This document shows positions 32,534 through 35,429 of a DNA stretch of 64,000 nucleotides, one piece after another; position 1 is the first letter of the stretch, and every line of letters begins with the position of its first letter. The notes beneath the pieces were generated by a model. That model did not search any database. It had not been told where the DNA came from and worked only from the letters and a program-made list of their open reading frames with translations. A program made the translations under genes and the position numbers. Source of the DNA: Candidatus Gastranaerophilales bacterium (GTDB lineage: Bacteria > Cyanobacteriota > Vampirovibrionia > Gastranaerophilales > Gastranaerophilaceae); the NCBI GenBank assembly GCA_947589425.1, contig CANQAV010000002.1, forward strand, positions 145,782 to 209,781. The letters run 5' to 3'.

Positions 32534-33370
32534 ATGTTAAAAGGTCCTTTTTTATCAAAAGATTTTATCGGTGCAAACCCTGATTATAATTCATCTAAAA
32601 TTGTTCTTTTGGGCGAGCCTTATGATTGTACCTGTTCAAATAGATCCGGCAGTCGATTCGGACCCCAGTGCGCAAGGCTTGAAAGTATCGGGATTGAAAC
32701 TTACTCTCCTTATTTTGATGAAAATATGGAAAACGCTTTGTTTTTTGATGCCGGAGATTTGGAATATCCTTTCGGAAATGCCCAAAGGGCTCTTGAGATA
32801 ACAAAAGAAAATGTTGATATAATTTACAAAGATAATAAAAAACTCCTTGCAATCGGCGGAGAGCATCTTTTAACTTTGGCAAACGTTCAAGCGGTATCTC
32901 AAAAATATGATAACCTTGCGGTTATTCAATTTGATGCTCATACCGATTTAAGAAAAGAATATCTCAAAGAGGAATTGACCCACAGCGGGGTTATGTACAG
33001 AATTGCCCAATTAATCGGATATGAAAATATTGCTCAAATCGGCATAAGAAGCGGTGAAAAAGAAGAATTTGAGATTATGAAAAAATATTCCTCTCAAAAA
33101 ACCAAAAAAGAGGAATTGGATAAATTTAAGGGCAAAAATATTTTCTTAACGATTGATTTAGATGTTCTTGACCCTTCTTTAATGTCCGGTGTCGGAACTC
33201 CGGAAGCAGGCGGATTTACTTATATTGAGCTTATGGATTGGCTTTTGTATCTGAAAGATTTTAATATTATAGGCGCAGACATTATGGAGCTTGCGCCCGA
33301 TATTGATATTACAAAAACTTCGACTGCAACCGCCTGCAAGCTTATAAGAGAAGTTCTTATGCTTCTTTAG
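32534..33370 (+). CDS. speB: Agmatinase / ureohydrolase family
   Basis: LLGEPYDCTCSNRSGSRFGPQCAR; AIGGEHLLTLANVQAV; QFDAHTDLRKEY; TIDLDVLDPSLMSGVGTPEAGG. Confidence 0.9.
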   Translation: MLKGPFLSKDFIGANPDYNSSKIVLLGEPYDCTCSNRSGSRFGPQCARLESIGIETYSPYFDENMENALFFDAGDLEYPFGNAQRALEITKENVDIIYKDNKKLLAIGGEHLLTLANVQAVSQKYDNLAVIQFDAHTDLRKEYLKEELTHSGVMYRIAQLIGYENIAQIGIRSGEKEEFEIMKKYSSQKTKKEELDKFKGKNIFLTIDLDVLDPSLMSGVGTPEAGGFTYIELMDWLLYLKDFNIIGADIMELAPDIDITKTSTATACKLIREVLMLL

Positions 33371-34298
33371 GTATTTGCGCAATTAATACCATTTCGCACA
33401 ATGCATTTTTTATTATCGGCTGGGTTATTTTAAATTCGTAACCTAAGTTCCAAGACTCTATTAAAGGTTTGATATCAAGAAGGTCTGAGCCTGTATGATA
33501 AATGCTTATCATAAGAGTGGGTTTAAATTTTTCAATTGTTTTTTTCGCACCTTGCAGTAATTGCCCTTCAAAGCCTTCGACATCGGTTTTTATAAGTCCT
33601 ACGTTCAGATTGTTTTCTTCGCTGTATTTATCAAGAGTTGTAATATTGATTGTTTCGTGTTTAAACTTTGTTTTTTCATTTCCTATAATGGAGCTTGCCA
33701 TTCCGATAATTGTAATTTCGGAAGTTTCTTCTTTGCTCCCCAGAGCATATTTTACAGGAACAATTTTTTGTGCATTATTTAAAGCGATTGTTTTTAACAT
33801 ATAATTATAGTTTTTGGTCGTAGGCTCAAAACTGTATACTTTTTTATTCGTATATTCCTGAAAAACAAGGGCAGAGTCCCCTACGTAACCGCCTGCGTCA
33901 ATTATATCTTTATCTTTGAAGTATTCGGTGTTAATGAGAGTATCGAGATGATGTCTGTAATAAAATACACTCGGCTCAAAGTGTGAAATCGGCAATTTGT
34001 ATTTTTGCCATATATAACATTCGGGGGAGAATGAAAAGATTGATTGTTCAAATTCTTTTTTGATTTTATCAATTTCTTTCATTTCATCAAGAGTGAAAAT
34101 ATTGTATATATCTTCATCTTCCTGTGCAAAAAGATTTATTCTTCCCAAAAAACGATTAAAGCATTTAATGCTTTCATCATCAAGGTTTTTAATTAATTTT
34201 TGATATCTTTCTTCAAAATTTTGGTTGTAGATTTCGCAATAAATTTTTCGTGCTCTTTCAACGTCACAGTCTTGCCGGCTTATATATATATAAGTCTG
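33357..34298 (-). CDS. FkbM-family methyltransferase, main (C-terminal) part of a split ORF
   Basis: IIDAGGYVGDSALVFQEYTNKKVYSFEPTTKNYNYM...LIKTDVEGFEGQLLQGAKKTI. The track starts it at a TTG (34148), but the frame is open to 34298 (QTYIYISRQDCDVERARKIYCEIYNQNFEERYQKLIKN...). Confidence 0.85.
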   Translation of the reverse strand, partial: QTYIYISRQDCDVERARKIYCEIYNQNFEERYQKLIKNLDDESIKCFNRFLGRINLFAQEDEDIYNIFTLDEMKEIDKIKKEFEQSIFSFSPECYIWQKYKLPISHFEPSVFYYRHHLDTLINTEYFKDKDIIDAGGYVGDSALVFQEYTNKKVYSFEPTTKNYNYMLKTIALNNAQKIVPVKYALGSKEETSEITIIGMASSIIGNEKTKFKHETINITTLDKYSEENNLNVGLIKTDVEGFEGQLLQGAKKTIEKFKPTLMISIYHTGSDLLDIKPLIESWNLGYEFKITQPIIKNALCEMVLIAQIPKEA

Positions 34299-34450
34299 TT
34301 AAATGTTTTTATCATATTTTTTATGAATAACCATCTGCTTTTTGTTTTAAATTTAATTCCGAAAATTGTAATAACTTTATGGGTTTCTTTATTCCTTATT
34401 GAAAATATATTTTCAATAAAAGTATTTTTTTCACGATGTTCTACAACCAT
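34280..34450 (-). CDS. N-terminal fragment of the same FkbM gene, terminated at a (TA)n tract
   Basis: MVVEHREKNTFIENIFSIRNKETHKVITIFGIKFKTKSRWLFIKNMIKTFNRLIYI*; strong RBS AAGGAG-tttat-ATG; stop lies inside TATATATATATA. Confidence 0.75.
   Translation of the reverse strand: MVVEHREKNTFIENIFSIRNKETHKVITIFGIKFKTKSRWLFIKNMIKTFNRLIYI
34281..34292. repeat. (TA)6 dinucleotide tract at frameshift point
   Basis: Read directly: ggct-TATATATATATA-agtc. Confidence 0.95.
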
Positions 34451-34613
34451 ATAAACTCCTTATATAAAAATATCAGACATTTTTATCCTATCATGGATAA
34501 AATCTTTCGTAAACGATTGACAATTTTTAAATAATCATTAAACATAAAAAATCCATAAAATATATTATGGAAATTCTATTCGCTATTTTATAAACTATTA
34601 ATTGAGGTATATT

Positions 34614-35429
34614 ATGTCTTACAAAAATGACCACGCTCTGACAATTGCAAATAAATACAGCTCCGCAAGCTCTGCGGCAAAAGCCGAACTGTATGAAACC
34701 TATGACAGATTAAGAGATTTAACCGTTTCGGGCTCAACTGCAACAGGCTCAGGTTTTGGCTCCGTCGGAGGTTTTTTGTGGCAATTGGCAAATTTATTTT
34801 CCCCTTCAAGCTTTATGCCGACACTGGGCGGGCAGGCAATGATGAATATACCCGGAACTTCTTATTGGTCGCCGAATTATGCCACTAATTCATATCTTGA
34901 TTCAGGTACAAATGCTTTTGGAGTATCCGGATTATCAAGCTATTCGGGCTTCCCTTCGGGAGCCGCAGGGATTTCACTGGGCTTTGGTTTGGAAGGCGCT
35001 CCTACGGGAGGTGCCGCAGGCTTAGCCACGGGATATGCCGTTCCTGCAGCAGCTGTTGCAGGGATTAACAGTGCTTCATATCTGACAGGCGCAACATCAG
35101 GCTTTGGTTTCGGGCAAAATATAGTTCTTCCTCTGGCGGGTCTTGTTTCGGGCTGGGGCGGATTATTACAGGCGATTGCTCCTTATGCGGGCGAATTTGG
35201 TCTCGGTGCGATTGTTGCGGGTAATTTAATGCAGGGCACGGGCTCTGCTGCTTTGGGAGCATATCAAAATATCACCGGAAATATCACAAATAATGCCGAT
35301 GTTATTTTGGAAGATAAAGTAAGAAACATCGAAACAATATGCAAAATGCTTGATACACAAGCTGATATTGTAAGACAGACCTTAAAATCAGATATGGAAT
35401 CTGATTCTAAACTTGTGGATGATCTGTAG
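34614..35429 (+). CDS. Gly/Ala/Ser-rich hypothetical protein
   Basis: Long Gly/Ala-rich core (GGAAGLATGYAVPAAAVAG..., LGAIVAGNLMQGTGSAALGAYQ) between helical polar ends. Confidence 0.65.
   Translation: MSYKNDHALTIANKYSSASSAAKAELYETYDRLRDLTVSGSTATGSGFGSVGGFLWQLANLFSPSSFMPTLGGQAMMNIPGTSYWSPNYATNSYLDSGTNAFGVSGLSSYSGFPSGAAGISLGFGLEGAPTGGAAGLATGYAVPAAAVAGINSASYLTGATSGFGFGQNIVLPLAGLVSGWGGLLQAIAPYAGEFGLGAIVAGNLMQGTGSAALGAYQNITGNITNNADVILEDKVRNIETICKMLDTQADIVRQTLKSDMESDSKLVDDL

Follow-up and report, generated by a model that had tools for sequence, protein, structure and literature searches.

The window, a 64-kb stretch of DNA from a Candidatus Gastranaerophilales genome, carries a gene of the FkbM methyltransferase family on the minus strand (34450-33357). 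As read from the sequence, the gene occupies two reading frames, with the break at a (TA)6 tract (34281-34292). It is solitary and lies outside any glycan cluster. In the direction of translation its features are:

34456..34461, minus strand: Shine-Dalgarno sequence AAGGAG (read from the sequence)
34280..34450, minus strand: N-terminal half, a 56-aa ORF from the ATG at 34450 (ORF, module HMM, alignment with FkbM homologues)
34281..34292, minus strand: (TA)6 tract, TATATATATATA, with the TAA stop of the first frame inside it (sequence, alignment)
33357..34298, minus strand: FkbM methyltransferase body in a separate frame, open from 34298 and with its stop at 33357 (ORF, Pfam)
34146..34148, minus strand: internal in-frame TTG, where a truncated enzyme might be weakly initiated (sequence, ORF)
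34080..34082, minus strand: internal in-frame ATG upstream of the methyltransferase domain (sequence)

This layout agrees with an earlier note, made from the letters of the sequence, that described an ATG at 34450 with an AAGGAG ribosome-binding site (found at 34461-34456), a stop inside the tract and a body open in another frame from 34298, which runs on to the stop at 33357. The arithmetic of the note is also borne out. The span from ATG to stop is 1094 nt (3n+2), and with one TA unit fewer, i.e., five, the halves join in one continuous ORF. More generally, 5 or 8 units give a single ORF, and 4, 6 or 7 leave the halves apart. The body has no further lesion in its reading frame. The note erred in allowing the body only the TTG at 34148 and no ATG, as an in-frame ATG is also present at 34082. 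Both internal starts precede the methyltransferase domain, and the out-of-frame locus therefore need not be a strict null. The same arrangement would suit a split gene that is functional without switching, through a truncated enzyme begun at either codon or through ribosomal frameshifting at the tract. However, inspection of the sequence before the TTG and the ATG found no Shine-Dalgarno-like sequence, no slippery heptamer was evident by eye at the tract, and homologues have kept the N-terminal part, making this account quite improbable.

The gene upstream, a divergent neighbor at 34602-35429 on the plus strand (275 aa), has no Pfam match. It is an unusually conserved protein, 83-86% identical in three species of the same genus (G008, G013 and G015). 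Conserved synteny was considered and rejected, given that neither an FkbM gene nor an agmatinase gene was found beside its homologue in any of the three.

The assignment of the body to the FkbM family, as proposed in the earlier note, is upheld by a match to PF05050 of 58.2 bits against a cut-off of 22.7, covering profile positions 1-172 of 173. The domain takes up residues 130-284 of the 309-aa translation that starts at 34286. The N-terminal half bears a module, 'FIENIFSIRN..HKVITIFGIKFK', that is common to other glycan genes of the genome, and it is found by a module HMM in a leave-one-out search with the window sequence excluded (E=5.9e-9). Over the one million bases scanned, about ten ORFs contain the module, and most of these have a poly-G tract of 8 or more. 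The alignment with FkbM homologues that the note had called for does recover both halves in single proteins. The sole other FkbM gene in the genome, an intact paralogue on contig C1 that is 48% identical, has a 'FFENIFSVKN' module, a linker and a body in the same order as the window gene, and this order is also seen in alignments of several more distant homologues. Judged from these related proteins that have both halves, the split at (TA)6 is real gene anatomy. The predicted product probably acts in the O-methylation of a surface or secreted glycan.

The C1 paralogue also carries a repeat, a G10 tract that aligns with the (TA)6 of the window gene in the same linker. Given this position, a change in length there should cost the protein least. 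The TA tract is absent from the more distant FkbM homologues, and a close copy of the gene is missing in most relatives. FkbM homologues in two species of the genus, G011 and G016, bear G9-G11. In G016, one FkbM gene is seemingly broken across two contigs, the start of C16 and the end of C58, exactly at a G10 tract (L244:5, L252:3886).

The length of the tract at the FkbM gene is within chance. About 1.3-4.1 (TA)6 sites are expected per genome under Markov models of order 2-5 (0.3 at order 1), and four TA tracts of 6 or more units are observed, in keeping with the caution in the earlier note that six units is short. The chance-compatible length favors the main rival to a switch, a fixed or recent loss-of-function frameshift, where a mutable tract gained one TA unit and the gene is becoming a pseudogene with no selected switch. 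The solitary position of the gene and the missing close copy in most relatives also fit such a loss. Against it, the rest of the gene and its ribosome-binding site are intact, indicating that the break is at most recent, and a repeat is also present at this linker in the paralogue, with further repeats in many other glycan genes. A fixed frameshift is rather unlikely when these points are taken together. An otherwise intact gene would likewise be seen if an assembly or sequencing error had altered the true number of TA units in a gene that is simply whole, and repeat indels are a common type of error. But short reads easily span a tract of 12 nt, and the assembly is clean, its contigs meeting at exact 77-nt overlaps with no tract at the ends; an error is very improbable. 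No tract heterogeneity was seen at the contig ends of this assembly, which overlap by repeats or k-mers. No other allele of the FkbM locus was found in the genome and viral contigs searched, whether the query was the protein or a pattern of the flanks with the tract length left free.

The strongest support for a switch comes from outside the window, from the G10 of the C1 paralogue, from a second TA tract in a glycan gene and from poly-G tracts in glycan genes. Two of the four TA tracts in the genome are intergenic, and the other two lie within glycan genes, both exactly at a frame break. One of this pair is the FkbM tract. The other is a (TA)10 (G000:C1:191971-191990) that breaks a GT2 gene adjoining the FkbM paralogue (L002:434-1423 and 265-504), and it is longer than chance predicts, as are the poly-G tracts. 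The C-terminal part of the broken GT2 gene is 57% identical to a homologue in G027 but lies in another frame, and the in-frame tail gives no comparable match. The surrounding cluster, named partly by eye and partly from Pfam, presumably includes UDP-galactopyranose mutase, GalE, GT8 genes and sugar-nucleotide enzymes.

Poly-G tracts (e.g., at L210, L215, L217, L218, L138 and L111) are abundant for a genome of 33.6% GC. The census gave 42 tracts of 7 or more, 36 of 8 or more and 23 of 9 or more, the last against 0.2-4 expected from Markov models. Poly-A/T tracts of 9 or more are nearly absent, with 9 in 788 kb versus hundreds to over a thousand expected. For fifteen of the 36 poly-G tracts (a raw count), the sense ORF that holds the tract or borders on it has a glycan-related Pfam domain. 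The genes concerned include GT2, GT8, GT9, GT90, polysialyltransferase, pyruvyltransferase and FkbM genes, and other tracts are located in short-chain dehydrogenases, a TPP enzyme and genes without assignment. Some of the genes are intact through the tract and several are split. A GT90 pair has both states, with one gene split at G8 and the neighboring paralogue intact at G9; the halves of the split gene are 58% and 89% identical to the intact copy. As far as sequence can tell, broken and intact repeat-bearing glycan genes in one genome are the anatomy of contingency loci. The genome also encodes two near-identical 1146-aa proteins, repeat-rich and with signal peptides, that have a G11 tract immediately before each ATG (G000:C5:78852 and 82626; L216:3853 and 7627).

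The account favored here, at slightly better than an even chance, is that the FkbM gene was assembled as the OFF allele of a simple-sequence-repeat contingency gene. The gene would belong to a set of such genes in this bacterium. TA slippage in the unconstrained linker that connects the N-terminal module to the enzyme body would change the reading frame, so that alleles with 5 or 8 units would make the full-length protein and those with 4, 6 or 7 would meet an early stop; the assembled allele, with 6, would be OFF. The repeat unit is not divisible by three, lies in a coding region and joins two parts of one protein, as in a contingency locus. A possible link to surface structures comes from the FkbM family and from the paralogue in a glycan cluster, with the window gene itself solitary. 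This reading gains from the G10 at the aligned linker of the paralogue, the GT2 gene broken at (TA)10 and the poly-G tracts of glycan genes, and it is weakened by a (TA)6 that is chance-compatible and short for a switch. We infer that the tract slips often enough to act as one and that the substrate of the enzyme is a glycan. Thus, for the phase-variable glycan-modification gene proposed in the earlier note, the FkbM identity and the genuine frame break stand and a glycan role is probable; switching at the (TA)6 itself is a plausible hypothesis.

Most descriptions of phase variation driven by repeats concern host-adapted Proteobacteria, Campylobacter and mycoplasmas. A partial literature search found no report of it in Melainabacteria or Gastranaerophilales. 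The kind of system is already known, as in Campylobacter, where the poly-G loci (PMC6321876) share several attributes with those described here: a genome rich in AT, poly-G found for the most part on the coding strand of surface-glycan, methyltransferase and similar genes, a minority of dinucleotide tracts, and frame switching by slippage. They differ in lineage, in the MutS found throughout the genus of the window genome, and in that the window tract is TA rather than G at a locus known from one allele. The PhasomeIt survey of Campylobacter accepted six or more dinucleotide units as a candidate, which puts (TA)6 at its lower limit (PMC6321876). In Haemophilus influenzae, most five-unit dinucleotide tracts showed no length variation (PMC2651432). 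The switching (TA)9-11 tract at hifA/hifB of that species (cited in PMC2651432) is likewise a case of TA dinucleotide slippage, but it is longer than the window tract and acts on promoter spacing, not on a reading frame. A repeat in an FkbM gene has been seen before, in ntHI0694 of H. influenzae 86-028NP, an FkbM-family gene with a G12 tract (PMC2651432). As in the window gene, the repeat is in the 5' part, and the product is thought to methylate surface sugars; unlike the six TA units of the window gene, it is a mononucleotide tract of 12.

Tracts of G9 or longer are concentrated in a few relatives. Four of the 28 species of the genus (the window genome, G011, G016 and G027) have 15-27 of them, and the rest have 0-2. 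A single origin of this richness within the genus was rejected, as the best MutS tree, though weakly resolved, does not group the four species as a clade. Loss of MutS as the cause of the tracts was also rejected, with MutS_I present in 28/28 species. Two contig ends of the sister species G016, on C23 and C67 (L246:7290, L254:7431), share a tract whose length differs, G10 on one contig and G9 on the other, with flanks that match exactly for 40 nt upstream and 67 nt downstream. The simplest reading is that tract length varied within the population sampled; a second copy of the repeat or a poly-G sequencing error is a possible alternative.

Poly-G of 10 or more is found in 92/117 genomes of the family, with up to about 120 tracts per genome. 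In three other genera (G048, G036 and G037), 25 of 30 sampled tracts precede a prepilin-like 'FTLAE/FTMAE' motif (L316-L345). The typical layout in G048 and G036 is a ribosome-binding site and ATG, a short leader, a tract of G10 to G14 and further leader, and 12/15 tracts in these two are out of frame with the upstream ATG under a loose start rule. In G037, most have another ATG after the tract. It is moderately probable that the whole family has a large repertoire of repeat-driven phase variation, with poly-G and a few TA tracts in glycan genes in the genus of the window genome and, in other genera, dozens of prepilin-like genes that have G10-G14 in their leaders. The subset of surface glycans and pilin-like proteins made by each cell would then keep changing, and the FkbM gene of the window would be a minor member. 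If this is true, a large family would have a Campylobacter-like set of switches, which would be a sign of strong pressure on its surface from immunity or phages, and many apparent pseudogenes in its assemblies would be reversible switches. Switching is directly testable, as existing metagenome reads give the tract lengths.

The idea that TA tracts always lie in glycan genes was rejected, as (TA)8-12 tracts in the family are also found in frame within membrane proteins or in intergenic DNA. Tracts of (TA)8-10 lie directly upstream of prepilin-like genes in two species of one genus, G005 (L059, L060, L061 and L065) and G012 (L062, L063 and L066), where they may act as switches in the promoter or the leader. 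An acyltransferase-3 gene of G008 is seemingly put out of frame at a (TA)11 tract, with the usual C-terminal motif in another frame.
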